DNA from: Leisingera sp. ANG59 | GTDB lineage: Bacteria > Pseudomonadota > Alphaproteobacteria > Rhodobacterales > Rhodobacteraceae | Assembly: GCF_013317235.1 (NCBI RefSeq) | Contig: NZ_WLCM01000035.1 | Span: 1 to 44,807 of the forward strand | Direction of reading: 5' to 3' | DNA length: 44,807 nucleotides | Shown: positions 6,153-44,807 of the stretch, piece by piece | Layout: each line of letters starts with the position of its first letter | How positions within the stretch are numbered: the stretch's first letter is position 1 | Made by a program: the position numbers and the translations under genes | The notes under the pieces: generated by a model | The model's input: the letters and a program-made list of their open reading frames with translations, nothing else | The model's database searches: none | What the model was told of the DNA's origin: nothing

Positions 6153-7046
6153 ATGAAATACGGCCTTTTGCTCCTGCTGGGGGTGTTGTGGAGTCTGCGC
6201 CTTGCCGCCATGAAATCAGCGGGGCAGTCGGGCATTCCGCCCCATGTGGTTGTCCCGATGTCGGTTCTGGGCATAGCGGTCCTCTATTCCGCAACGTCGG
6301 CCATGCGCCGTAACTGGCCACCAATCGACCGCCCTGCCATCGCGTTTTATTGTCTCAGCGGCCTCTTCGGTTTTGTCTTGCCCTTCATCCTGGAGATCAT
6401 GGTCACTCCCCGGCTGCCCTTGTTCGCCTTTGCCGTGATCATCTCCACGATGCCCATCCTAACCACCCTCCTCGCGACCTATCTTGGTGTGGAAGATCTG
6501 AACACAAGGCGGGTCTGCTCGGTTCTTCTGGGATTTGGTGCAGCAGTTCTGATCCTTTGGGACACTGCGGAGCTCCCGGCTGGCAATGTTACCTGGACGT
6601 GGATACTGGTCGCATTGGCGGTTCCTGCCCTCTACGCGGCGAATACGGTTTTTGTCGCCGCGCGCTGGCCCGACGGGGTCGATGCATTGCATGTGGCCAA
6701 TGCGCAAGCGCTTATCCTTTCGGTGGCCGCACTCGCAGGGGGGCTGGTTTCCGGCAGCATCATTGAATGGCACATGGCCCCGTCAAACATGGCAGCCATC
6801 GGGACAATCAGCGCCTGCGAGGGGCTTGCGTTGCTCGTCTATTTGAAGCTGACACGGGATCATGGCCCGACGCTCGTTTCGCTGGCAAATTTCATCGCAC
6901 TGTTTATGGCCGCGATACTCGGAGCGGTTTTCTTCGGTGATCGGTTTAGCTGGCTGTCTGCCCTGGCGGGATTTGTTCTCGTGGCGGCACTGATCATGCG
7001 CAATCAGGACGAGCGGTACCGCGCATCGCACGGCTCAGCTACTTAG
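6153..7046 (+). CDS. EamA-family (DMT superfamily) transporter
   Basis: 297-residue membrane protein with about ten hydrophobic helices arranged as two EamA repeats (roughly residues 5-140 and 150-285). Segments include FYCLSGLFGFVLPFILEIMV, FAFAVIISTMPILTTLLATY and LANFIALFMAAILGAVFFGD. Family members export metabolites and amino acids. The start lies four bases after the LysE-family stop, so the two are very likely co-transcribed and the pair is probably an amino-acid or metabolite efflux module. Substrate is unknown. Confidence 0.88.
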   Translation: MKYGLLLLLGVLWSLRLAAMKSAGQSGIPPHVVVPMSVLGIAVLYSATSAMRRNWPPIDRPAIAFYCLSGLFGFVLPFILEIMVTPRLPLFAFAVIISTMPILTTLLATYLGVEDLNTRRVCSVLLGFGAAVLILWDTAELPAGNVTWTWILVALAVPALYAANTVFVAARWPDGVDALHVANAQALILSVAALAGGLVSGSIIEWHMAPSNMAAIGTISACEGLALLVYLKLTRDHGPTLVSLANFIALFMAAILGAVFFGDRFSWLSALAGFVLVAALIMRNQDERYRASHGSAT

Positions 7047-7839
7047 AAGCGGACTTTGGTTCATCCTGCAGCATCGGTAAGCACGGGCTCTAGTCAGCTT
7101 TAGCCGCACAGACCGCCAAGGGCTGGACTGGGGTAAGCCGACCTTGGGCCGTTCAGGAAACGGGGGTTTCCTAGACACCAAGACGCCGCCGAGCCAGCGT
7201 CCAGAGATCATGATAATTCTTGTCCTGAAATTGCGTCTGATATTCTATGTTCAGTCCAGATTTTGCGCCATGAGTTTCCAGACTGCATCAAAGCTTTGAA
7301 AACGATAGGTATTCTTATTCGCATCCAATGTGAGCCGGGCCGGATGATTGCAGGCTGGTTGCAAACAATGTGGGTTCGTTCGCAGATAATCCGGGTTTGA
7401 GGCCCCCGATAGCGTCAGATAATTCGAGTCGAAAATCGCGATGATTGCAGGTCGAGGTGTTTATGTTTGCAGGTCGCTACACCTATAGCCCTGCACTTCG
7501 CGCAAGCCTTACTTTGCTGCACCACTCGCTTCTCTGTTCGCGCCTCCTGGTGCGATGCCCTCCGGAAGATCCTCAGTTTTCGGATAGCCGAGGAGAGCAC
7601 ACATCAAATTCTACAAGTACGGAATCCTTCGCTCAGGAGCATAGCTTGGACGCGAGTTCCGAATGCTGTTCTGTCTGCAGCAATCAACGCGGAAGCTTTC
7701 GGAAGCAAAAAACAACGGTGCGTTGAAAACTGATGTTGACACGAATTTGATATTCGTGGCAAACACCGATTACGGGATGCCATGGCTTCTCGTTAAACAA
7801 TCATCTTGCTAGGAAGTCGTCGCCAACAGGGGACGACAC
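7047..7839. other. Long stretch without a supported gene
   Basis: Almost 800 bases between the EamA transporter and the first gene of the transfer region. Short frames on both strands (for example 7415-7733) overlap each other and look like no known protein, so I leave them out. This stretch is the likely boundary between cargo and transfer genes. The one structured feature seen is the inverted repeat at 7740-7758. Confidence 0.5.
7740..7758. promoter_or_regulatory. Inverted repeat, possible operator
   Basis: CACGAAT and ATTCGTG form a perfect 7-bp inverted repeat with a five-base spacer. It directly overlaps TTGACA (7736-7741), a match to a -35 hexamer, about 80 bases upstream of the 7840 gene. 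A regulator binding here would be well placed to control entry into the transfer operon. No convincing -10 was seen at 17 bases. Confidence 0.4.
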
Positions 7840-8220
7840 ATGCCGATAGAGAGATACCAATCCTTGGTCACGATTGCTGGCGTTATGAGCTGGAAGAAGG
7901 CGGGGAAGGACTTTCAAGTTCGGTACGACCTAGTAAAACTAGGGGTGAAAAGCGGTGCTCCGGCCTACAACTGCACATACATTGTTGACGGCCAGGAACA
8001 CGTGCTGGTCCCGACAAATCCCGGACCAAGCGGCTTCATTGAGAAACGCCAGATCAATCTTTGGCCGGGTATTCTCAAAAAGCACCACCTTGAATTCGGC
8101 GATGGTTCGATGCTGGTGTTCAACCCAAAGGATCAAACCATTACAACATGGGTGGTTGGACCTGACGGCACAGCTGAAGTTGGTACTGTCGGGAGAGACT
8201 GTACCCAGCCGGAAAGCTGA
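7840..8220 (+). CDS. Hypothetical protein upstream of the pilin gene
   Basis: 126-residue protein, MPIERYQSLVTIAGVMSWKK onward, soluble, with no signal peptide or membrane segment and no family I recognise. It contains two cysteines (YNCTYIV and GRDCTQ) and looks rich in beta strands (INLWPGILKKHHLEFGDGSM, TTWVVGPDGTAEVG). It is the first gene before the tra operon and is separated from traA by 235 bases, so it may be a regulator or a first-expressed accessory protein, but this is only positional. The start follows GGGGACGACAC. Confidence 0.6.
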   Translation: MPIERYQSLVTIAGVMSWKKAGKDFQVRYDLVKLGVKSGAPAYNCTYIVDGQEHVLVPTNPGPSGFIEKRQINLWPGILKKHHLEFGDGSMLVFNPKDQTITTWVVGPDGTAEVGTVGRDCTQPES

Positions 8221-8393
8221 ACAGAGTGCTGCGTGTTCGCAAGCACCAGCAAGGCATACTGAAAACACGCGCGAACTGAATGCCGTAACCTCCCCGTCGG
8301 CAGAGTTTGCGCGGCGCATGTTTGTGGCCCAGGCATGCGCCGAATTTTCCAAATCTCACGAACATTCTGAATTTCGTCCGCAATGGACGAGAT

Positions 8394-8415
8394 CCCGCGG
8401 TGTCGGACCCGCGGG
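8394..8415 (+). promoter_or_regulatory. GC-rich hairpin in the traA leader
   Basis: CCCGCGG (8394-8400) and CCGCGGG (8409-8415) form a perfect 7-bp stem with the loop TGTCGGAC. It lies about 40 bases before the traA ATG and is not followed by a T-run, so it is more likely an RNA control or stability element than a simple terminator. The loop octamer recurs in the traD leader at 30250-30257. Confidence 0.45.
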
Positions 8416-8440
8416 TTATTTCTGTGCATCTGAAACAACG

Positions 8441-8455
8441 AAAGGAACGAGGGAT
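8441..8455 (+). repeat. Leader 15-mer, copy 1 (before traA)
   Basis: AAAGGAACGAGGGAT directly before the traA ATG; the identical 15 bases occur at 30271-30285 before traD. It contains the ribosome-binding sequence (AAGGA) and is longer than a ribosome-binding site needs to be, so it may also be a shared control element. Confidence 0.6.
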
Positions 8456-8821
8456 ATGCACATTTCGAAGACCCTGAAGACTGCCGCGATGGCTGCGGTA
8501 GTGGCTGTGGCTGGAACCAGCGCGATGGCGGCCGGTTCGGACACCGGTGTTGAAGCCGGTTTCTATGCGCTCGGCCAGGACCTGAACACCATTCTCGATG
8601 GTGCAGGTGGTTACGTCATCTTGATCCTGTCTGTGATCATCGGTGGCGCAACTCTGGCAGTTACCGGCCGCTGGGGCCATGTTTTCATTGCCATCGGTGT
8701 TGCGGTTTTCCTGGGCTACGGCGTCCAAACCGCCACCAGCCTCGGCGGTGTTACTGCAAGCACCGATCTTCTGGAGCTGTCGGCCGTGGAGGCCCCCGTT
8801 TCGGAAACCGTCACTCAGTGA
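8456..8821 (+). CDS. traA: F-type conjugative pilin TraA
   Basis: 121-residue prepilin. The leader (MHISKTLKTAAMAAVVAVAG, then TSAMA) ends in an AMA-A signal-peptidase site at about residue 26. The mature part is small with two hydrophobic helices, YVILILSVIIGGATLAVTG and HVFIAIGVAVFLGYGVQ, separated by a short basic turn (RWG), the standard F-type pilin layout. A hydrophilic tail of about 25 residues (ending SETVTQ) follows the second helix. Position as first gene of the traLEKBV series supports the call. An S26 peptidase encoded at 15160 may process it further. The ATG has a strong site in the leader 15-mer. Confidence 0.85.
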   Translation: MHISKTLKTAAMAAVVAVAGTSAMAAGSDTGVEAGFYALGQDLNTILDGAGGYVILILSVIIGGATLAVTGRWGHVFIAIGVAVFLGYGVQTATSLGGVTASTDLLELSAVEAPVSETVTQ

Positions 8822-8877
8822 TCTGGACTGCTTCCCGTGCCTTCTGGTGCGGGAAGCAATTCCTGAAAGGAAGAGGC

Positions 8878-9165
8878 ATGGACAAGGTCGTTAAAGTGGA
8901 ACAGAGGCTGCAAGACCCGCCGCAGTTCTTTTTCCTGCCTGCCGATGAAGCGGTGGCCGGAATGTTTCCCATTGTACTGGGCCTCCTGGGCCGTCAGGCG
9001 TTTTTTGGCTTCGCAGCCGGGCTTGCGTTTTATTTCATCTGGAAACGTGTGAAGGGCGAGCGTGGATTGCACGGGCTCCTGGCTCTTCTCTATTGGATCA
9101 CTCCGAAAGAGATCACCATCTATCGGTCCTTCCCGGATAGCGCTGTCAGCGCCTGGAGGGCGTGA
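8878..9165 (+). CDS. traL: Pilus assembly protein TraL
   Basis: 95-residue small membrane protein, MDKVVKVEQRLQDPPQFFFL onward, with the TraL pattern: a short cytoplasmic N-terminus, the segment LPADEAVAGMFPIVLGLLG, a second hydrophobic stretch (FFGFAAGLAFYFIWK) and a conserved end (LLYWITPKEITIYRSFPDSA). TraL/VirB3-type proteins work with the TraC ATPase at the inner membrane in pilus assembly. AAAGGAAGAGG precedes the ATG. Its stop overlaps the traE start. Confidence 0.9.
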   Translation: MDKVVKVEQRLQDPPQFFFLPADEAVAGMFPIVLGLLGRQAFFGFAAGLAFYFIWKRVKGERGLHGLLALLYWITPKEITIYRSFPDSAVSAWRA

Positions 9166-9719
9166 TGAACTTTCAGAACATGAACAAAGCCCTGAACCGC
9201 TCCCGGAAAGCGGTGCTAACTCTGGGTGTTGTATCGGCTGGACTGGTTGGTGCCGTCGTGATGCTGTCGGCCAAGCTCTATTCGCAGTCCAATCAGGTGG
9301 TTCTTGTGCCTACCACCGTCAGCGACGGGATGGTGGCGCGCGGAACAGTGGATAAAGGCTATGTTGAGGCGCTTGCGCTGGATGCGGTCTATGCGATGTA
9401 CAATAGCTCGCCCCGGACCCTTCATTACGGGCGCGGCGTCCTGGAACGGCTGAGCGGCCCGGCTGAGCGGGCCGGCATCCTGGATACTTACGACCGGATT
9501 GCCAAGGACATCACCGAACGCAAGATCTCGACCGTCTTCTTTCCCCGGAAGATCGAGCACAACTTTGCCACCTATGAAGTGGTGGTTGAAGGCGACCTCG
9601 CCACCTACCTGGAAACAACTCAAGTCACCCGCGAAGACCGCCGGATTTTGATCCGGTTCAAGCCGCAAGCCGGTTCAGTCCGGCTCGCCGCTATCGGGAA
9701 AATCTCAGCGGAGGAGTGA
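9165..9719 (+). CDS. traE: Conjugal transfer protein TraE (VirB5/VirB8-position)
   Basis: 184-residue bitopic inner-membrane protein with one N-terminal helix (RKAVLTLGVVSAGLVGAVVM) and a periplasmic domain that looks VirB8-like (KGYVEALALDAVYAMYNSSP, ISTVFFPRKIEHN, TYEVVVEGDLATYL). It belongs to the F-type core between TraL and TraK. The ATG at 9165 is used, overlapping the traL stop (TGATG) with GGAGGG just upstream; a GTG at 9162 is possible. Confidence 0.9.
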   Translation: MNFQNMNKALNRSRKAVLTLGVVSAGLVGAVVMLSAKLYSQSNQVVLVPTTVSDGMVARGTVDKGYVEALALDAVYAMYNSSPRTLHYGRGVLERLSGPAERAGILDTYDRIAKDITERKISTVFFPRKIEHNFATYEVVVEGDLATYLETTQVTREDRRILIRFKPQAGSVRLAAIGKISAEE

Positions 9720-9727
9720 AGCTGACC

Positions 9728-10441
9728 ATGATGAAGACTTTGAAACTGGCGGCGGTTTTCGCGGCCGGGCTGGCGGCGGCTTGCCCGGTGAATGCGGCAG
9801 ATCAGCGTTTTACCGTCTCAGAGGATGGCCTTGTCCGCTTCAAGGCATCTGTAACCGGCATTACCCGCGTCAGTGTCGTGGGCGACCGGATAACGTCGAT
9901 TGTCAACGACAATGAGGCTTCGGTCTATCAGGTCCGCAATGACGAAAAGACCGGGGATCTGTTCCTCAAATACGCAGGCCCGGAGGGAATGCCGGAAAAG
10001 GAAGGCGGCTATCTGGTCACGGAAAGGGGTCTGACAGTCGCCTATGAAATCCTGCCGATCCGCGCGAGCACGCAAACCGCGCTGATCACCGTCAGAAGCA
10101 AGAACCCGGAACCAGAGGCTGCTGCGGGCAGCGGCGGCTTCGCCGACACCTCACTTGGCGGCGGCGACGGCCTTGCAGCTCAGCTGACAGCCGCGACCCG
10201 CGACACCATCAGATCGAAGATCCGCAGCCCGCGCCCGGGCAGCGCTCGCCATGGTGCGCTGATCACCTCGCACCGCACCGGTGAGCTGGTTGGCGAGGTT
10301 CGTGTGGCTGCGGCTGGCAAGTCGCCTCGGCAGGTTCGGGAGCAGGAGTTTTACCGGTCCGGCGTGCTGTCGGTTTGGGTTCAGAAAAAGAGCCTCGCTG
10401 CCGGTGAACGGTCCTGGGTTGTTGTTGTGAGGGCGAAGTGA
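9728..10441 (+). CDS. traK: Outer-membrane core protein TraK (VirB9-like)
   Basis: About 237 residues with a signal peptide (MMKTLKLAAVFAAGLAAACP, cleavage near NAA-DQ). TraK is the secretin-like VirB9 counterpart and forms the outer core with TraB and TraV. Matching segments are RFTVSEDGLVRFKASVTGI, LFLKYAGPEGMP and GGYLVTERGLTVAYEILP, with a beta-rich C-terminus (QEFYRSGVLSVWVQKKSLAA). The start is uncertain: GTG at 9716 or ATG at 9728/9731. I prefer 9728 because it gives a normal signal peptide. The end overlaps traB. Confidence 0.88.
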   Translation: MMKTLKLAAVFAAGLAAACPVNAADQRFTVSEDGLVRFKASVTGITRVSVVGDRITSIVNDNEASVYQVRNDEKTGDLFLKYAGPEGMPEKEGGYLVTERGLTVAYEILPIRASTQTALITVRSKNPEPEAAAGSGGFADTSLGGGDGLAAQLTAATRDTIRSKIRSPRPGSARHGALITSHRTGELVGEVRVAAAGKSPRQVREQEFYRSGVLSVWVQKKSLAAGERSWVVVVRAK

Positions 10442-30120: not shown

Positions 30121-30270
30121 CTTAACATAAATCGGATTATGACGCTGAGCGCACTTAGCGCGGCCTGGTGAAACACCTGGGCCGCGGCACCCCGGCTATT
30201 GCCGTTTGGAAACAACAATTTGCGAAGTGCCGCGGGTGTCCCGAGCTGTTGTCGGACTGCTCGCGTTGCA

Positions 30271-30285
30271 AAAGGAACGAGGGAT
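30271..30285 (+). repeat. Leader 15-mer, copy 2 (before traD)
   Basis: AAAGGAACGAGGGAT, identical to 8441-8455 before traA. Here six bases lie between it and the ATG, against none before traA. TGTCGGAC (30250-30257), the loop of the traA leader hairpin, also recurs just upstream. Confidence 0.6.
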
Positions 30286-30290
30286 TCGTC

Positions 30291-32654
30291 ATGCGCAACA
30301 AAGGACATACCCAGCTTGTCAGAGGCGGCCAGACGACACAACACTGGACCCGCATGGCAACTCAGGTGTTCAAGTACAGCACCTCGGTAGCTGCTGCAGC
30401 GTTCACCATCACGTTTCTGATTCTAGTCGCTCAGAATTACGAAATGGATAAGGTGCGCCTCACCGGCATCTACTGGATCGCGGAATTCAACGTTGAACAG
30501 CGGGGCACGGAACTCCGCGAACTCAACTATGTGGATCTCGACGGCAGGCGCGTGAAGCGTACCGCCGGACAGATCTATGCCGACCGCGACATGCGTGCGA
30601 CCTATCACCTCTACACTGCCAATGCCTGGCGCTACCTCTATTTCTCCCTGCTGCCAGCCGCCGCAGCGTTCGCTTTCACCTTCGCGGTCTTCGCCATGGT
30701 TGGCCGGTCGCTGAAAGAGGAAGAACATATCCGGGGTGCGCGCCTGGTCACAGCCAAGGAGTTGAAAGCCTGGTCTAAGCGGAAGTGGCGCGAATACGAG
30801 AAGCGCTTTGGAAAGGGTACCAAGAAAGGCCCCCGCTACACGCTGGCCGGGATCGAGTTTCCGCCCAATGCCGTAGAGGCGCAGATCGGCATCACCGGCA
30901 CCGTCGGCACCGGTAAGTCGAACCTCATGCACGAGCTGCTGAACACCATCCGGGCCGCTGACGGCAGGGCCATCATCTATGACAAGATGGGCGGCCTGCT
31001 GCGCGACCACTACGACCCGGAAAAAGACATCATCCTCAACCCCTTCGATGAACGCTCCGTGGGCTGGTCGCCTTTCAATGAGGTGGCTTCACCGGAGGGC
31101 TTCGCGCAGATCGCCGAGGTGATGATCCCGGATCAGCAAGGCTCCATGGACAGTTTCTGGACGCAATCCGCCCGGCTGGTCTTCCAGTACACCGCCCGCG
31201 AGCTGGCAAAGGCCGGAAAGACCACCAACGCAGATCTTCGCAAGGCTATCATGAACATACCTTCCGAGGAGCTGGGCAAGCTGGTGGCTTCTACGCCGGG
31301 CGCTCACTTCTTCGGGGAGCATGTTGCGAAAACCTCCGGCTCGATCCGCGCCAACATGATCACCGAGCTGCGGTTTCTGGAATATCTGCGCGATGACGCC
31401 GAACCCTTCTCCATCCGTGATTGGGTTGTGAATGACCGGCCCGGCTTTGTGTTCCTGACCGGCGATGCGGAAAAGTCGGCCGCGACACGCAACATCATCT
31501 CGACCCTATTTGAGGTGGCAGCCAACGCGCTGATGACGACAGAGGAAAGCCGCGACCCCAAAGTCTGGTTCTTCCTGGATGAGGTGCCAACCCTCAACAA
31601 GATGCCGTTCTTGCCCAAGAGCCTTGCGGAGATCCGGCAGTTCGGCGGCGCTTTCGTCGTCGCCTACCAGGTGTTTTCCCAGCTGGAAGACATCTACGGC
31701 GACAAGGCGGCAGAGACGATTTCCGGCGTTCTGAACAACCGGGTTGTGTTCAACACTCCAGATTACAACACCGCGCAGCGCTCCTCCCGCTCTCTTGGTG
31801 AGGAGGATGTGATCGAGCAGCAGGAAAACATCACCCTCGGCGCGCATGACACCCGCGACGGCGTGGGCATTGTCGGCCGCCGTACTCAACGCGCCATCGT
31901 CACCCCGGCGGAAATCCAGTCATTGCCGCAGTTCGTGGCCTACTTTCGCCCGGCCTATGACGCCCCGACCGCCAGGGTGCGTTTTGAACCTGTGCCGACC
32001 ACGGCCACTGCGGAGAAGTTCGTCCCATACAAGGGTAATGGCTTCGATGCGGGCGGAATGCAGGTTGCCGCCTTGAATGTGGAAATCGAGGAGGGCGAGA
32101 CTGCGGAAGAGGGGTTCGCGGCCCTGAAACCCGAAGAACAGAAAGCTGAGTTTTTTCGGTTCCTGGACCGCGTGCGCCCCGAAGGCGCGGTGGGAATTGA
32201 GGAACCCGCCAAAATCTCGGAACGGGACTGGTACTGGCAGCATTTTGCCACAGCCCGGGTACGCGGCCACGATGTGAAAGAGATTGCTCCGCCAGACCCT
32301 TATGCAGGCTTCGCAGGCAACGGCACTGCCAAGGCCCGCGAAACTGCCGCGCTCCCCTACCCCGGCACCACGCCGGCACAGGCTGACCAGGAGACTGCAG
32401 CCGCCGCGCCAGCGAAAGAGCCTGCGCCAGAGGATCCGGCTCAAGTAGCAGAAAAACCTGCGGACGGAGACGCGGCGGCCGAAATGGTCAGCCCTGCCCT
32501 ACCCCTCTCTGTTCGTGCCCATCCCGCCGTCGGCCGCGCCCAGCCGGACAGGAAAACACCCAACCGGCCGGAACACCCGCAGGAGCCTCCAGCCAAAAAA
32601 TCCGCCGCCAGCGCACTGCTGGCGATGGAAACCACCATCCGGGGAGTGAAGTGA
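30291..32654 (+). CDS. traD: Type IV coupling protein TraD
   Basis: 787-residue inner-membrane ATPase that joins the relaxosome to the channel. Two N-terminal membrane helices (about residues 27-45 and 110-135, AWRYLYFSLLPAAAAFAFTF) are followed by the motor domain. Walker A is ITGTVGTGKSNLMHE (around 203-210) and Walker B KVWFFLDEVPTLNKM (around 424-435). FWTQSARLVFQYTARELAK, FGGAFVVAYQVFSQL and FNTPDYNTAQRSS are TraD-type. The last ~130 residues are Pro/Ala/Glu-rich and probably flexible. The ATG at 30291 is chosen from the leader 15-mer; an upstream GTG (30168) is less likely. Confidence 0.95.
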   Translation: MRNKGHTQLVRGGQTTQHWTRMATQVFKYSTSVAAAAFTITFLILVAQNYEMDKVRLTGIYWIAEFNVEQRGTELRELNYVDLDGRRVKRTAGQIYADRDMRATYHLYTANAWRYLYFSLLPAAAAFAFTFAVFAMVGRSLKEEEHIRGARLVTAKELKAWSKRKWREYEKRFGKGTKKGPRYTLAGIEFPPNAVEAQIGITGTVGTGKSNLMHELLNTIRAADGRAIIYDKMGGLLRDHYDPEKDIILNPFDERSVGWSPFNEVASPEGFAQIAEVMIPDQQGSMDSFWTQSARLVFQYTARELAKAGKTTNADLRKAIMNIPSEELGKLVASTPGAHFFGEHVAKTSGSIRANMITELRFLEYLRDDAEPFSIRDWVVNDRPGFVFLTGDAEKSAATRNIISTLFEVAANALMTTEESRDPKVWFFLDEVPTLNKMPFLPKSLAEIRQFGGAFVVAYQVFSQLEDIYGDKAAETISGVLNNRVVFNTPDYNTAQRSSRSLGEEDVIEQQENITLGAHDTRDGVGIVGRRTQRAIVTPAEIQSLPQFVAYFRPAYDAPTARVRFEPVPTTATAEKFVPYKGNGFDAGGMQVAALNVEIEEGETAEEGFAALKPEEQKAEFFRFLDRVRPEGAVGIEEPAKISERDWYWQHFATARVRGHDVKEIAPPDPYAGFAGNGTAKARETAALPYPGTTPAQADQETAAAAPAKEPAPEDPAQVAEKPADGDAAAEMVSPALPLSVRAHPAVGRAQPDRKTPNRPEHPQEPPAKKSAASALLAMETTIRGVK

Positions 32655-32655
32655 C

Positions 32656-35640
32656 ATGATGTCGATCTCAAACGTCTCGGCCGGGGCGGCTGCCAGCGGC
32701 TATTACAAGGAAGAAGGCTATTACAAAGCGGGTACAGAGGAGGGCGAACGGGCGGCCACCTGGTTCGGCAAGGCCGCGGACGAAAACGGCCTGAGCGGCT
32801 TTGTCGATGACAGGCACTTTGCACAGATGCTCGATGGTGAAGCACCGGACGGCAAGCTGATGGGCCGCTATGTGGACGGCGAACGCCAGCACCGCCCTGG
32901 CCTCGACCTTACCTTTTCTGCGTCCAAATCGGCTTCAGTGGCCGCCCTGGTGATTGGCGACAAACGCATAATTGAAGCCCATGACGCCGCAGTGCGCGCG
33001 GCTATGACAGTGGTGGAAGAGCGGTTTATTAAAACGCGATTCCAGCAAGACGGGGAAATCGTCACGAAAAACGGGGAAGGAATTATTGCCGGAATTTACA
33101 GACACGACACCTCCCGCGCGCTTGATCCGAATTTGCACAGCCACGCCGTCATTGCCAATATGGTGAAAAACGAAAACGGCGGATATTCGGCAATTCGGAA
33201 TGAAGCCATATACAAAAACCAAAAACTAATTACGGAAATCTATCGCTCCGATTTTGAGAACCGGATGGCAGACCTAGGCATTGCCACGGAACGCGGGAAA
33301 TACGGAGAAGTGAATATTTCCGGTATTTCTCAGGAAGTGACCGAAGCCTTTTCCAAGCGGCGGCAGGAAATTCTCAATGCCCTCGACAACAAGGGAATGG
33401 ATGTTTCGCCGGAAACAGCGAGCAAAGCGGCATTAGCCACCCGTGCGGCCAAGCACAAAAATCTGGACCGGGACGCGCTGCGCGAAACCTGGCGCGCAGA
33501 CGCACTCTCAGCCGGTCTTGGCCGGGATCAGCTGGACCTTGGTCGGGTGGGTCACGCAGCCCCGCAGCCCGTTATACCGCTCGACCAGCAGCGCCCGATC
33601 GACCCCCTTGCGGAAACCGGCCAGCCGTCCGGGATGTTCGGAAAGGCAAAGGCCATGCTGTCCAGTGCCGCAGCCGTGGCACGCGTGGAGACTGACCCCA
33701 GGCAGGCCGTAAACCGTGCTGTCGAGCACATAAGCGAACGGGAATCCGCCTACAGCAGGGCGGATCTCACGGTGGCGGCGATGCACTTCGCTTACCGTTC
33801 AGACTTCAAGGCGGTGGACGCAGAGATAAACCGGCAGATCAAAGCTGGCCGGCTCTTCGAAAGCGGCGAGGATGGACAGATCTTGACAGACAAGGCGTCT
33901 GTGGAACTGGAACGCTCCATCCTGGCTTCCTGGCGGAAGGCCGAAAAGGCCGGTGGACTGGAATTGAATGGATACCGCGGACGCAGCGGTGAAAGCACCC
34001 TGCTTACGAAACTTGCCGCAGTGACCAGCCTGACCGATGGTCAGCGCGCTGCCATCGAAAACACCCTAACCGGCTCAGGACGGTATGTCGGGATCCAGGG
34101 CTACGCCGGTTCAGGCAAAACCTTCATGATGGAGCGGATGGCTCATTACGCCGGTCAAAGCGGTTACGAGGTAAAGGGCTTTGCTCCAAGCCACCAGGCT
34201 GTTCAGGAACTTGCCAGTGTCCTCGGCAGTGCGGAAACCCTCGCCAAGGTAACTACCGCTGAGAGGCATCATCCGCAGGACGTGGACAACAGCAAGACCA
34301 TTCTTGTGGTCGATGAAGCCTCAATGGTGTCCGCCCAGGACATGCGCAGCTTCATGGATTACGCGGAGCGCACCGGCGCACCGCGCGTCGTCTTCGTGGG
34401 CGACACGCAGCAGCTCGATGCGGTTGCCGCCGGTCAGCCATTCGCCCAAATGCAGAAAGCCGGGATGCGAACGGCGGTCATGGATGAGATCCGCCGCCAA
34501 CGGGACGATGACCTAAAAGCAGCGGTCTATCACTCGATCCGGGGCGAAATCACGGCTGCCTTCAACCGGATGGAAAACAACGTTCTGAAGGTCGATGACC
34601 CCCGGCAAGAGGCCGCGGAAAGGTTCCTTGCTCTCAACCCGGCGGAGCGGCAGGGAACGCGGATCCTCGCCCTCACCAACGCCGCACGCGCGGAAATCAA
34701 TGAGGCCGTGCGCGATGGCCTCCGGCAGGAAGGCCGCATCGCCTCCGAGGAGGTCAAAGTGAACGGCCTGCTGAACCGTCAGCTCACCGAAGCAATGCTG
34801 GCCGACGCCCGCAGCTACGCCCCCGGCGATGTGGTCATGTCTGTGGCGACAAGCAAGGAATACGGCTTGAAGAAGAACGGTCTCTATGTGGTCCGCGACG
34901 CTGATCATCGGGGCAACAAGCTGACCGTTGAGCACGAGGAAACCGGTGCCCGGACCACCCTGCCCCTGGCTGCGAAGTTCAATCAGCGGGAGCTTGGAAA
35001 GGCACTGGTGGCCTATGAGCGCGAGGCCCGCGGCATGGCTGAAGGCGACCAGGTGCGGTTCCGGATCACAGACCCTGAAAGCAGCATCAAGAACGGTTTG
35101 CGGGCTGAAATTAAATCAACTAAGGGTGGAGTAATTGAGGCCGAGACGCAGGAAGGATCGCGCATCACCATTCCCGCTGACAGCCTCGCGGCCCGTGGCC
35201 TGGAACACGACTACGCAGCCACCGCTCACGCGGTTCAAGGCGAGTCCGTTGACAGGGTGATTGTAGCGATGCGCTCCACCGAACGGCTGGCGACCCAGAA
35301 GAGTTTTTACGTTGAAATCAGCCGGGCTCGGGATGAGGCGATGCTGCTGACCGAAGACCCGGACCGGCTGTCCAAAACCATCGAGAACGAAACCGGGATC
35401 CGCCAGACCGCGCTCGATGCCTGGCTGGACGGCCGCCTCGCTGGCGCCCGCGCCCGCCAACCGGAAGAGGAACAAACCCGAGAGGAACCACAGGAGAAGC
35501 CTGAGGCGGTGAAGGAAAAAGAGGCCAAGGAGAAGGAGCCGGACACCCCTGCCCTGCCCGGCCTCTTCGATGAGAAACTTAAAGAAGTTGAAAAGCAGGC
35601 TGAAATTGTCCTGCAGCGAGACAAGGACATTGAACGATGA
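32656..35640 (+). CDS. traI: MobF relaxase-helicase (TraI/TrwC type)
   Basis: 994-residue protein, close to TrwC in length and shorter than F TraI. The relaxase domain starts with a tyrosine cluster, SGYYKEEGYYKAG (residues about 15-25), and has the metal-binding His motif in YRHDTSRALDPNLHSHAVIA (about 149-164). The helicase has Walker A GYAGSGKTFMME (about 482) and Walker B ILVVDEASMVSAQD (about 549), with HDYAATAHAVQGES near residue 855. It nicks oriT, covalently holds the 5' end and unwinds the strand. The C-terminus is charged. An A+T-richer patch covers about 33000-33440. Confidence 0.96.
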   Translation: MMSISNVSAGAAASGYYKEEGYYKAGTEEGERAATWFGKAADENGLSGFVDDRHFAQMLDGEAPDGKLMGRYVDGERQHRPGLDLTFSASKSASVAALVIGDKRIIEAHDAAVRAAMTVVEERFIKTRFQQDGEIVTKNGEGIIAGIYRHDTSRALDPNLHSHAVIANMVKNENGGYSAIRNEAIYKNQKLITEIYRSDFENRMADLGIATERGKYGEVNISGISQEVTEAFSKRRQEILNALDNKGMDVSPETASKAALATRAAKHKNLDRDALRETWRADALSAGLGRDQLDLGRVGHAAPQPVIPLDQQRPIDPLAETGQPSGMFGKAKAMLSSAAAVARVETDPRQAVNRAVEHISERESAYSRADLTVAAMHFAYRSDFKAVDAEINRQIKAGRLFESGEDGQILTDKASVELERSILASWRKAEKAGGLELNGYRGRSGESTLLTKLAAVTSLTDGQRAAIENTLTGSGRYVGIQGYAGSGKTFMMERMAHYAGQSGYEVKGFAPSHQAVQELASVLGSAETLAKVTTAERHHPQDVDNSKTILVVDEASMVSAQDMRSFMDYAERTGAPRVVFVGDTQQLDAVAAGQPFAQMQKAGMRTAVMDEIRRQRDDDLKAAVYHSIRGEITAAFNRMENNVLKVDDPRQEAAERFLALNPAERQGTRILALTNAARAEINEAVRDGLRQEGRIASEEVKVNGLLNRQLTEAMLADARSYAPGDVVMSVATSKEYGLKKNGLYVVRDADHRGNKLTVEHEETGARTTLPLAAKFNQRELGKALVAYEREARGMAEGDQVRFRITDPESSIKNGLRAEIKSTKGGVIEAETQEGSRITIPADSLAARGLEHDYAATAHAVQGESVDRVIVAMRSTERLATQKSFYVEISRARDEAMLLTEDPDRLSKTIENETGIRQTALDAWLDGRLAGARARQPEEEQTREEPQEKPEAVKEKEAKEKEPDTPALPGLFDEKLKEVEKQAEIVLQRDKDIER

Positions 35641-36128
35641 GCGAGACACCCCAGAACGTCCGTATCGTGCTCGGCCCTGTGGCCCGGCAGCTTATCGACG
35701 GCGCAGGAGAGAACCGCCCCAAGGCATTGGACGATGCGATTACTGCCCTTCTGGAAGGGCAGAAAAGCGGGCAGGCAGAAGCCCTTGAACAGACCCCGCT
35801 GGATACACGTTTGGCGTCCCTGGAGGCTGCGATGGAGCGCCAGACCGAAGCGCTCCGGAACCTCTCCTATACCGCGTCACTGGAACTGAAAATGACCCGC
35901 ATCCTGATTGCCTCACTCATGAGTGAGGGCAATCAGGATCAGCAGACTCTCCTTGCTTTGGCCTCCCAGGCCACCGAAGAGGTTCAATCAAAACTGCAGT
36001 TGCTTGGAGATTCCGAGATTGAGAAACTGCGGGAAAACGAGGCATCGGTTCAAACGGCGATCTTGCGCGATTTAGAGCGTGGCGGCTTGGAAAACGAACC
36101 GGCAGCAGAGGCGGAGATTGAGCGATGA
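35637..36128 (+). CDS. Hypothetical protein downstream of traI
   Basis: 163-residue soluble protein, MSETPQNVRIVLGPVARQLI onward, overlapping the traI stop by four bases. The first ~40 residues resemble a short DNA-binding or dimerisation module (QLIDGAGENRPKALDDAITA). The rest is mostly helical with coiled-coil character (RLASLEAAMERQTEALRNLS, EVQSKLQLLGDSEIEKLREN). Being made with the relaxase and next to the presumed oriT, it could be a relaxosome accessory protein; this is inference. A 39-base palindrome lies within the gene. Confidence 0.7.
   Translation: MSETPQNVRIVLGPVARQLIDGAGENRPKALDDAITALLEGQKSGQAEALEQTPLDTRLASLEAAMERQTEALRNLSYTASLELKMTRILIASLMSEGNQDQQTLLALASQATEEVQSKLQLLGDSEIEKLRENEASVQTAILRDLERGGLENEPAAEAEIER
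35901..35939. repeat. 39-base near-perfect palindrome inside a gene
   Basis: ATCCTGATTGCC-TCACTCA and TGAGTGAGGGCAATCAGGAT pair throughout except for one unpaired base, centred on CATG at 35918. It lies in the coding sequence for the relaxase-linked 163-residue protein, about 420 bases before the nic-like site. It could act as a protein-binding site, an RNA hairpin or a single-strand DNA structure. Confidence 0.75.
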
Positions 36129-36168
36129 TGAGCTTCCTGAAGCGGGCCGAAACCGGCCAGTACCGCGC

Positions 36169-36204
36169 TGCCATGCCGTGCCATTCGCGTGGCATGGCAT
36201 GGCA
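36169..36204. repeat. 15-bp inverted repeat with TGCCA units
   Basis: TGCCATGCCGTGCCA (36169-36183) pairs with TGGCATGGCATGGCA (36190-36204) at 14 of 15 positions, six-base loop TTCGCG. Both arms consist of repeated TGCC(A/G) units, and two more CCCCTGCCAC repeats follow at about 36207-36228. This is the left part of the presumed oriT region. Confidence 0.7.
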
Positions 36205-36221
36205 CACCCCTGCCACAACCC

Positions 36222-36239
36222 CTGCCACGGGCAGTTTTT
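36222..36239 (+). terminator. Possible intrinsic terminator after the traI unit
   Basis: CTGCC-ACG-GGCAG followed directly by TTTTT (36235-36239). A short 5-bp GC stem with five T, about 95 bases after the stop of the gene downstream of traI. The stem is short, so termination may be partial. It fits an end of the traD-traI unit before oriT. Confidence 0.5.
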
Positions 36240-36292
36240 GGGCCTTCAGAACCCCTAAAAATATGGGCGAAAAAGGTTCTAGCAGTGCCGCT

Positions 36293-36375
36293 TTGCCAAA
36301 ATGCCAATTTTGGCAATTAAATCAGCGCCTTGCGCTGATTTGCAGCTTGCTGCGTGAGGTGTGGACCTTCTATGA
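36293..36375 (+). other. oriT: Candidate origin of transfer (oriT) with F-like nic site
   Basis: Three hairpins stand in a row: TTGCCAAAAT/ATTTTGGCAA (36293-36316), AAATCAGCGC/GCGCTGATTT (36319-36341) and GCAGC/GCTGC (36342-36353). Directly after them comes TGCGTGAGGTGTGG, against TGCGTGGGGTGTGG at the F nic site as I remember it (one change in 14). Nicking would be between 36362 and 36363 on the + strand. A hairpin just 5' of nic is normal for MobF relaxases such as TrwC. The neighbouring MobF relaxase gene and the tra-last polarity support the call. Confidence 0.75.
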
Positions 36376-36514
36376 GGACCGAAGGGCCGAATTGGGCGTT
36401 GCTGGCCCGAACCATCAGGGAGGGCTGAGCCAAAAGCCCGCCAACGAGGCGGCGCAAAGCGCCTCAATTCCCCTCTGGGGTCAGAGGCCACGGAATGCCC
36501 TTTCGGCCCTCCTG

Positions 36515-37303
36515 ATGGCGCTCCTGGCTCCTGCGGCTGTCTCTGCCGGAGACTGGTCCAGCTCTGGCAGCTTCGACCTGAAAGAGACCACTGAAATCCG
36601 CGAAAGTCTGGCCTCGGCTCCGGCTTCCTCCCAGGGCGGCTGGAACTTCGCCACGAGGGAAAGTGAGTGGGTTGCCCTCGATGCCTTTGAACGCTCGCGG
36701 CCGGGAAAGCAGCCCCCTGCCCCGGCCACCTTCCGCCTTCCCTCCGGCTCCAATGTCGAGCAGCTGTTTGCCCTCATCGCATTTGCTGAAGCTCCCGGCG
36801 GCCGCTATGACGCGATCCATCACGGCGCCAAGGTGAAGCCCGGCAAGAAACCCTCACAGATGACGCTTGCGGAAATCTACGCCTGGATCGACCGCACGCC
36901 GGGCCAGCCCCATGCCATCGGAAATTTCCAGATCATACCTTCGACTTTACTTAACTTGCAGAAACGTCTGGGCTTGCCTGACGGAACCCGGTTCAGTCGG
37001 GACACACAGAACCGCATGGCCGCGCTTCTGATTTCGGACGCGGGGTATCAGAAGTTCTCGGCTGGCCGGATTTCACGCTCTGCTTTCATGGACAACCTGG
37101 CGCGCATTTGGGCTGGTCTTCCGCTGGTGTCCGGCAAGTCCGCCTATCATGGGTATGCTGGAAACCGCGCAACCATCACGCGGGCATTCTATAGCGAGCA
37201 GATGGAAAGGATCTTTGGCACGGGAAAAGCCCGGACAGCGGCTGTATCCCAAGCACCACGAACGCGGGCACTCTCCGCGGGGTGGACAGGTCTGGGCAAG
37301 TGA
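36515..37303 (+). CDS. Secreted lysozyme-like / lytic transglycosylase protein
   Basis: About 262 residues from the ATG at 36515, with a signal-like start (MALLAPAAVSAGDWSSSGSF). The C-terminal ~190 residues look like a lysozyme-fold muramidase: LFALIAFAEAPGGRYDAIHH, MTLAEIYAWIDRTPG, then GQPHAIGNFQIIPSTLLNLQ. The Glu of AFAEAP is a plausible catalytic acid. It probably opens peptidoglycan for the channel, like VirB1/orf169. The same frame is open back to 36125, where an ATG overlaps the upstream stop and has GGAG before it; I prefer the shorter form because that stretch is oriT-like. Confidence 0.7.
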   Translation: MALLAPAAVSAGDWSSSGSFDLKETTEIRESLASAPASSQGGWNFATRESEWVALDAFERSRPGKQPPAPATFRLPSGSNVEQLFALIAFAEAPGGRYDAIHHGAKVKPGKKPSQMTLAEIYAWIDRTPGQPHAIGNFQIIPSTLLNLQKRLGLPDGTRFSRDTQNRMAALLISDAGYQKFSAGRISRSAFMDNLARIWAGLPLVSGKSAYHGYAGNRATITRAFYSEQMERIFGTGKARTAAVSQAPRTRALSAGWTGLGK

Positions 37304-44417: not shown

Positions 44418-44571
44418 TTAGTGCCGCCAGTTGTCCCGCCCATACTTCCTCCCATTGACGGTTAAGCGGTCGCTGCCATCTATCGGCACATCCTCATGCA
44501 CAAGGCTGCCATCTTCCCTGATCCGGTAGATACTGGCAGTCGTGTCATCGAACCCGAAGCTGTCAATGAGC
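44418..44571 (-). pseudogene. 3' part of a gene cut by an IS21 element
   Basis: Reverse-strand frame with no start, joined to the IS21 end at about 44571. The remaining ~50 residues include FGFDDTTASIYRIREDGSLV and end DRLTVNGRKYGRDNWRH. No family recognised. The sequence looks coding (sensible codon use and a natural stop), so the IS element probably interrupted a working gene whose start lies beyond the element, outside the window. Confidence 0.55.
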
Positions 44572-44807
44572 GTTCAAAACTGACCCGGTTTCAGCGTTTG
44601 AATTTGACCCACCCCTTGTGGCGCAAAGGCCCCAGGCGGGCCGCCCTCCTATAGCGAGTCCGTCTGGGGCCTTTGCTTGCGCGACGTTTATGTTTTTCTG
44701 CGTCGCTTGCTCTGTGCGAACCGGTATGACGTGTTGCCTGTCTCGATGATTGCGCAGTGATGAGTTACGCGATCCAGAAGCGCGGTTGTCATCTTGGCGT
44801 CACCGAA
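44572..44807 (-). mobile_element. IS21-family element, istB end
   Basis: The window ends inside an IS21-family element. The end region has two related motifs, TTCAAAACTGACCC and TTTGAATTTGACCC (about 44574-44610), typical of the repeated terminal sequences of IS21 elements. The 3' end of istB follows. A 13-bp stem GCAAAGGCCCCAG/CTGGGGCCTTTGC (44623-44676) between them may stop transcription. The left border at about 44572 is approximate. Confidence 0.75.
44688..44807 (-). CDS. istB: IS21 helper ATPase IstB, C-terminal part
   Basis: Partial reverse-strand gene entering from the right edge: [20 protein letters not shown] followed by [14 protein letters not shown] and a basic end before a TAA at 44688-44690. 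This is the usual C-terminus of the IstB AAA+ helper ATPase of IS21-family transposons, which controls target choice for the IstA transposase. The start is outside the window. Confidence 0.85.

Follow-up and report, generated by a model that had tools for sequence, protein, structure and literature searches.

Integrative elements that insert in the oriT of conjugative elements are described from Firmicutes as IME_oriTs; in the passages of Libante et al. (2020, PMC7563843) drawn on here, they occupy the oriTs of MobT ICEs and rely on a relaxase of their own for transfer. As described there, they are the closest precedent for the locus reported below. For staphylococcal non-conjugative plasmids, the sections used (PMC8136818) describe mimics of a conjugative plasmid's oriT and no transfer genes. 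Relaxase-driven integration at a MOBF nic site is described for TrwC of R388 (PMC4176350, in part). The strand-biased integrative elements SE-6283 and SE-6945 are described with a core set of intA-CDS2-intB-CDS4 and an attB without inverted repeats (PMC9345347, in part). A search of the open-licence literature found no earlier report, for roseobacters, of oriT-targeting elements or of oriT copies on plasmids without transfer genes.

The window (the whole stretch of DNA analyzed, 44,807 bp) is contig C38 of the 5.33-Mb draft genome of Leisingera sp. ANG59, which comprises 108 contigs. We consider it likely that positions 36169-36364 are the oriT of a conjugative MOBF plasmid with F-type transfer, and that its hairpin and core double as a docking site. 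That the site is the oriT of this plasmid, with its MOBF relaxase and F-type T4SS, is almost certain.

Predicted oriT and neighbouring transfer genes

The following features were assigned.

30168-32654, + strand: F-type coupling protein, TraD-like (PF10412, 1.4e-134)
32656-35640, + strand: MOBF relaxase-helicase, 994 aa (PF08751, 2.1e-76; NF041492 MobF, 268.5 bits, cut-off 100)
35637-36128, + strand: 163-aa accessory protein, proposed binder of the half-site array; a homologue or same-place gene lies behind the relaxase in relatives
36169-36227, no strand: seven TGCCA/TGGCA half-sites, spacing 5, 10, 11 or 12 bp, with starts 128-182 bp before the core
36293-36302 with 36307-36316, no strand: inverted repeat 1 (IR1), TTGCCAAAAT/ATTTTGGCAA, perfect 10-bp stem, 4-nt loop
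36319-36328 with 36332-36341, no strand: inverted repeat 2 (IR2), AAATCAGCGC/GCGCTGATTT, perfect 10-bp stem, 3-nt loop
36342-36346 with 36349-36353, + strand: nic-proximal hairpin GCAGC-TT-GCTGC, perfect 5-bp stem, proposed relaxase-binding hairpin
36351-36364, + strand: F-like nic core TGCGTGAGGTGTGG, predicted cut 36362/36363; in relatives also the putative crossover core of integrative elements
36500-37303, + strand: lysozyme/endolysin-like gene, the first after nic (phrog_90 endolysin, 9.1e-14); true start uncertain

F-type transfer proteins in the window were identified by family profile matches to TraC_F_IV, TraG_N and the TraD-like coupling protein. The latter scored 407.8 bits (8.5e-122) against TIGR02759 TraD_Ftype, under the cut-off of 521.35 bits. 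The 994-aa relaxase gave the single PF08751 match of the whole genome. Its relaxase domain scored 165.5 bits against TrwC and 156.8 bits against F TraI among PDB chains, which favours neither subgroup. Identity is 36.8% with F TraI and 36.6% with R388 TrwC, and the domain was grouped in an alphaproteobacterial clade of its own (Rhodobacterales and Maritalea), with weak placement with F. A reading made earlier from the sequence only had suggested that the locus would link two MOBF subgroups; a bridge between the F and R388 subgroups is unsupported by these identities and by the clade.

The core at 36351-36364 (+) is one base off the F nic core as read from NC_002483, and the F core given in the sequence-only reading agrees with that record. 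The three adjacent perfect stems of 10, 10 and 5 bp lie exactly where that reading had placed them. The F T-strand in NC_002483 is GCAAAAAC-TT-GTTTTTGC-GTGGGGTGT-GG; over a longer stretch, F has GCAAAAACTTGTTTTTGCGTGGGGTGTGG and the window GCAGCTTGCTGCGTGAGGTGTGG. As expected of a MOBF F-type oriT, the hairpin is immediately 5' of a TGCGTNNNGTGT core. The cut homologous to that of F falls at 36362/36363 in the window, in agreement with the sequence-only reading, and nic is probably there.

With at most one mismatch, the F core occurred once in the window against 0.03 expected, and at least one match was obtained in 3 of 100 dinucleotide shuffles. A three-mismatch scan gave 6 matches (only one exact) against 4.4 expected and is not significant alone. 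The single strand 36160-36400 folded better than 200 of 200 shuffles (z -5.1), a score to which an extra inverted repeat at 36169-36204 contributes. A chance match as origin of the core was rejected by the folding and one-mismatch shuffle tests. No better nic-like block was noticed in the remaining plasmid, which was viewed without a systematic scan.

The half-site array is the densest such cluster in the window (80-nt windows). TGCCA arrays with 10-12-bp spacing were also present in Chachezhania, Pukyongiella, Cereibacter and Gemmobacter, and the place of the array is constant in relatives, some of which carry a GGGCCA motif. Close relatives with an accessory protein 93-96% identical to that of the window have a TGCCA array, whereas in those with a protein 38-44% identical (L043, L046, L035 and L047) the array in this position is built of GGGCCA. 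No simple rule joins motif and protein identity, because distant accessory proteins are again found with TGCCA (Pukyongiella 34%, Cereibacter 23%, Gemmobacter 19%). The 163-aa protein matched no Pfam, NCBIfam or PHROG family, and the few proteins scanned gave no match to a TraM or TraY model. Its AlphaFold model is weak and consists of helices only (pLDDT 69.7), so that with no family a ribbon-helix-helix fold would be a guess. The array is the putative binding region of this protein.

The gene order is relaxase, 163-aa protein, oriT candidate, lysozyme-like gene. The 994-aa relaxase would probably bind the GCAGC-TT-GCTGC hairpin and would cut the + strand after GTGT (36362/36363), with the 163-aa protein probably bound to the phased half-site array. 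On the predicted strand, the lysozyme-like gene would lead into the recipient and the tra genes would enter last. In F, a transglycosylase gene directly follows nic and is likewise sense on the T-strand, which makes the polarity equal to that of F, as the sequence-only reading had proposed.

The lysozyme-like protein is 51% identical to a Pukyongiella protein annotated as glycoside hydrolase family 104. Searches of Pfam, NCBIfam and PDB sequences were uninformative for it, and the endolysin assignment came from PHROGs alone. An open frame, 36125-37303 (+), spans the whole oriT into this gene, and in two relatives (L034, L042) the annotation treats it as one gene; translation probably begins downstream of nic. 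At its right end, 44559-44807, the window is an inverted copy of the first 249 bases of contig C79 (L014 1-249), beside a transposase-like ORF, which indicates that both contigs run into one repeat.

Conservation beside MOBF relaxases

Positions 36100-37303 were searched with blastn against 72,556 plasmids, giving 26 records; in 13 of these, the match touches nic. Twelve of the 13 were fetched (the match of the thirteenth, H4, was the same as that of H3). The sequence-only reading had named the block a likely oriT, to be compared with related plasmids; in these it is kept beside the relaxase, and hairpin and core were present in all 12 fetched records, one with an extra base. Loci L030 and L031, which end within or directly behind the matched relaxase part, were left out; the matches of L032 and L033, which come from a cyanobacterium and a clostridial MAG, are weak. 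The F core occurs without any difference in three Leisingera loci (L024, L037 and L041).

Hairpin and core were also located behind diverged relaxases of Gemmobacter (52.7% domain identity), Cereibacter (55.9%), Yoonia (47.1%) and Chachezhania (62.3%). The Yoonia stem, GCAACC/GGTTGC, contains a compensated change. The Chachezhania core is TGCATGAGGTGTGA and is outside the alignment described below; for Maritalea, a weak hairpin is all that was found at the expected place. An oriT has reportedly been described in older work for the S factor plasmid of Rhodobacter sphaeroides, which may be identical with the Cereibacter sites; no report on this S factor was found in the open-licence literature. 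In Sphingobium pYGP1 (L105), near 601 (-), a hairpin TGCACC-GCA-GGTGCA followed by TACGGTGTGC lies upstream of coupling-protein and relaxase genes and resembles a further F-like nic, in a sphingomonad.

Twenty-nine sites were aligned, Chachezhania and Maritalea being excluded. TGCG and GTGTG are invariant, an invariance partly built in since part of the sites were picked by motif. In alignment A4 of 20 sites, the nic-proximal hairpin forms four or more Watson-Crick pairs at every site, in one or the other of two registers, and 60.6% of cells pair in one fixed register. For IR1 and IR2, 86.9% and 83.5% of cells are paired over the 20 sites, each with both-side changes in 3 of 10 pairs. Covariation in the stems is modest: 6 pairs changed on both sides, a result seen in 3 of 500 shuffles and better than most slid controls, with slides of -3 and +2 likewise giving 6 both-side pairs in fewer cells.

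Conservation of the block as coding sequence was considered, as the open frame noted above (NQRLALICSLLREVW) runs through nic and similar residues are found there in Pukyongiella. The codon test covered 28 of the 29 aligned sites, one with an insertion being dropped. GTG is present in 28 of 28, and neither the V codon nor either L codon varies in its third base. The codon that separates R from V, by contrast, specifies E, Y, G, Q, H or M. Few synonymous changes were seen: CGC replaces CGT at two sites and TTG replaces CTG at one. Fixed third bases next to a codon giving six amino acids point to a constraint on the DNA and not on the protein. The core also runs on into the unrelated right flanks B and C described below, and in F this DNA adjoins a gene with a different annotation. 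Coding constraint was rejected by the codon test and is left with a very low probability.

A sample of 21 genomes of the genus was scanned with the site pattern CAGCN{2,3}GCTGCGYNNNGTGTG. Eighteen pattern sites were found in 8 genomes, and the reversed pattern gave none. PF08751 gave 9 matches in 8 genomes, one being a contig-end fragment (G406, a genome with no site); both features occur together in 7 genomes (Fisher p 0.0005), and G399 has three sites and zero PF08751 matches. For all 8 genes with a complete MOBF domain, one of them in a shortened 870-aa frame (G400), the contig also carries a site, at 3.64-3.67 kb from the start of the domain. In this sample the site is thus linked to, and co-conserved with, the MOBF relaxase.

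In a sample of 394 genomes of the family, the site was found in 15, PF08751 in 13 and both in 7 (p 4e-8). Five of the 7 double-positive genomes have a same-contig site 3.7-5.4 kb downstream of the domain start; in G328, also double-positive, the site is far from the relaxase and is without oriT-like flanks. Six of the 13 PF08751 genomes are without a pattern site. The reversed pattern gave 3 matches in the 394 genomes, and 9 of 20 pattern sites, those without oriT-like flanks, are probably chance.

Site copies without a MOBF gene and flank exchange at the core

Ten of the 18 sites in the genus are on contigs without PF08751 (three each in G000 and G399, one each in G396, G400, G405 and G412). 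The genome of the window has such copies on C17, C45 and C79. C17 (97,012 bp) has identical 249-bp ends and is therefore probably a circle of ~96.8 kb; C45 and C79, both draft contigs, might be part of the window's plasmid. Left of the oriT copy on C79 (L014, ~6258-10022), ectoine-like cluster ORFs were noted from their translations, which suggest an acetyltransferase, an aminotransferase, a protein similar to ectoine synthase and an aspartokinase.

None of the seven closed plasmids with the site that were scanned for PF08751 gave a match. Six are typed non-mobilizable (pBMJM1_1, pBMJM1_6, CP081040, CP081054, CP081094 and CP136705). The seventh, NC_023136, is typed mobilizable and has, besides the site, the accessory gene and a relaxase remnant of 117 aa. 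PF03432, another relaxase family, was not found in five of the seven and is present in CP081094 and CP081040, both of which may thus own a mobilisation gene. The second core of CP081094 is degraded. The Left2 site of pBMJM1_1 (L108 near 6240; transposase genes nearby) has one extra base between GCGT and GTGTGG, as does that of pBMJM1_2 (L038 near 4010); these sites may be inactive or shifted. Tritonibacter CP136705 (L109 near 5186) has a Left2 site with the diverged core TGCGTAGTGTGTAG, which resembles the R100 nic more than the F nic. The copies on C45, C17 and pBMJM1_6 are without IR1, IR2 and the array and for this reason may not work as oriT. Judged from the site copies, mobilisation of MOBF-less replicons in trans is plausible; it could be provided by the relaxase of a plasmid with the same oriT.

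Left flanks of the core fall in two classes, Left1 (with IR1/IR2 and the array where intact) and Left2. Right flanks fall in class A (lysozyme-like gene), class B (recombinases), class C (HipBA) and one singleton (G399 C15). The classes change exactly at the core, which we attribute to integrative elements with tyrosine recombinases sitting exactly there. C45 is not quite clean, its first post-core bases being B-like and the rest A. HipBA modules behind nic cores of MOBF-less contigs or plasmids were recorded at L014 10624-12515, L060 25886-27784, L108 ~6240-9309 and L097 5326-7222; the HipA proteins of C79 and G399 are 96.3% and 94.8% identical to that of Leisingera sp. M527.

The tyrosine recombinase IntA was found behind 8 of 10 RightB junctions, at a distance of ~176 nt from the core in loci where the alignment includes residue 1. 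The exceptions, G396 C5 and G405 C97, keep just 27 and 83 bp of RightB. IntA is 88-100% identical over aligned stretches, apart from two L. methylohalidivorans pieces at 90% and 82%. IntB was found in 6 of the 8 IntA loci; one locus is cut before the IntB position, and the 19 kb fetched from L. methylohalidivorans contained none. The elements therefore have their own integrase at one end, although the recombinase genes of M527 look broken by fragmentation and IS.

Left1-core-B and Left2-core-C share a strand in M527, separated by 23,877 bp; the separation in G399 C16 is 39,423 bp. Contig C79, from the genome of the window, has Left1-core-C and represents the empty site for the 23.9-kb and 39.4-kb elements. 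The joined flanks of the M527 element gave a single alignment to C79 across the core (1050 bp, 95.6%, with just 50 bp left of the core), and those of the G399 element likewise (1241 bp, 90.7%, 240 bp left of the core). Precise insertion in oriT is thus documented with a known empty site for both. The left flanks of two L. methylohalidivorans plasmids are 98.0% identical over 1041 bp to the core and continue as A in one and B in the other. In pBMJM1_2, Left1-B and Left2-A are on the same strand ~86 kb apart; in Tritonibacter CP136707 they are in opposite orientation, for which a later inversion is needed. A Left2-core-B joint, as expected of a circle or tandem, was found once (G405 C97, with 83 bp of RightB and no IntA) and may be a tandem remnant. 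The core variants give no choice between a core that moves with the left flank and one that moves with the right.

The two bounded elements gave no match to PF08751 or PF03432, the two relaxase families searched; the PF03432 matches of M527 unnamed3 and of G399 fall outside the elements, and PF08751 was found neither in G399 nor in M527 unnamed3. Behind the recombinases, an OLD-family protein (M527) and SIR2 with HerA (pBMJM1_2) were identified as cargo. For five of six proteins examined in the G399 element, PADLOC gave no match, and the sixth was matched by models of RtcR-like regulators; defence cargo is thus not universal.

Exchange of flanks by the relaxase, through TrwC-like nic-to-nic recombination or integration of transferred strands, would account for a junction at the nic core in every flank class, and is possible because the crossover base could not be mapped. 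Against it, IntA is behind 8 of 10 RightB junctions, the other two being the short remnants, and G399 holds a bounded element with no PF08751 today, although past loss is possible. Integrase-driven elements moreover usually have the integrase beside their attachment site. IntA at the junctions and the absence of PF08751 from G399 speak for the recombinases, and relaxase-driven exchange is judged rather unlikely. Since the core is a junction site in relatives, the motif might also be an integrase attachment site only, with the true nic elsewhere on the plasmid. This is very improbable given the F match and the fixed position behind relaxase and array; in Cereibacter, Gemmobacter and Yoonia plasmids, hairpin and core are behind the relaxase with no integrase annotated beside them. 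Most likely, from the compared loci, one sequence would be used by two enzymes, by the relaxase as nic and by the element recombinases as crossover core. In this genus, hairpin plus core would then be the attachment core for elements with tyrosine recombinases, and the oriT their docking site. The copies on replicons without a MOBF gene and the elements inserted at the core are beyond what the sequence-only reading could see.

Implications and comparison with known systems

The site would provide a concrete oriT for F-type plasmids of roseobacters, which have many plasmids per cell. Large plasmids typed non-mobilizable, pBMJM1_1 and pBMJM1_6 among them, are predicted to be able to move in trans via one relaxase. 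In the part of the 2013 genome paper of L. methylohalidivorans used here (PMC3910543), pMeth_B221 is called probably non-conjugative, having no virB operon. This plasmid, taken by its size as NC_023146, has the oriT beside a MobF relaxase and is conjugative according to PLSDB. If insertion at the core is as proposed, the notion of oriT-parasitising elements, reported from Firmicutes, would extend to MOBF plasmids, and element genes, defence genes among them, would land immediately behind nic, in the leading region, the first DNA to enter the recipient.

A wider reading equates nic with att: relaxase-less elements would dock at the MOBF nic hairpin by tyrosine recombinase, their circle would carry a nic core that a helper relaxase could transfer, and several large plasmids typed non-mobilizable would share one transfer system. 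We put this forward tentatively, as an idea somewhat short of an even chance.

Compared with the oriT of F (MOBF, MPF_F), the window shares 13 of 14 core bases and a TT-loop hairpin ending in TGC immediately 5' of the core. The stem is 8 bp in F and 5 bp in the window, with equal geometry and equal distance to the predicted cut. A gene sense on the T-strand follows nic in both (transglycosylase in F, lysozyme-like in the window), with the tra genes last. Unlike in F, the relaxase gene of the window adjoins oriT and reads toward it, and a phased array with the 163-aa protein is at the place of traM in F, as compared by family scans. The relaxase has 994 aa in the window and 1756 in F.

In contrast to the IME_oriTs as described in the passages used, the elements here are in MOBF plasmids of Alphaproteobacteria, at an F-like nic, with IntA/IntB and with no PF08751 or PF03432 in the two bounded elements. 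The staphylococcal mimics, so far as the source sections describe them, differ from the copies reported here, which are on roseobacter replicons of ~54-355 kb and are in some cases split by inserted elements. SE-6283 and SE-6945, as described in the passages used, likewise have a pair of tyrosine recombinase genes (intA, intB) at one end. With R388 TrwC, as far as the cited extract describes it, recombination at a MOBF nic is common to both systems, while here recombinase genes flank the junction.
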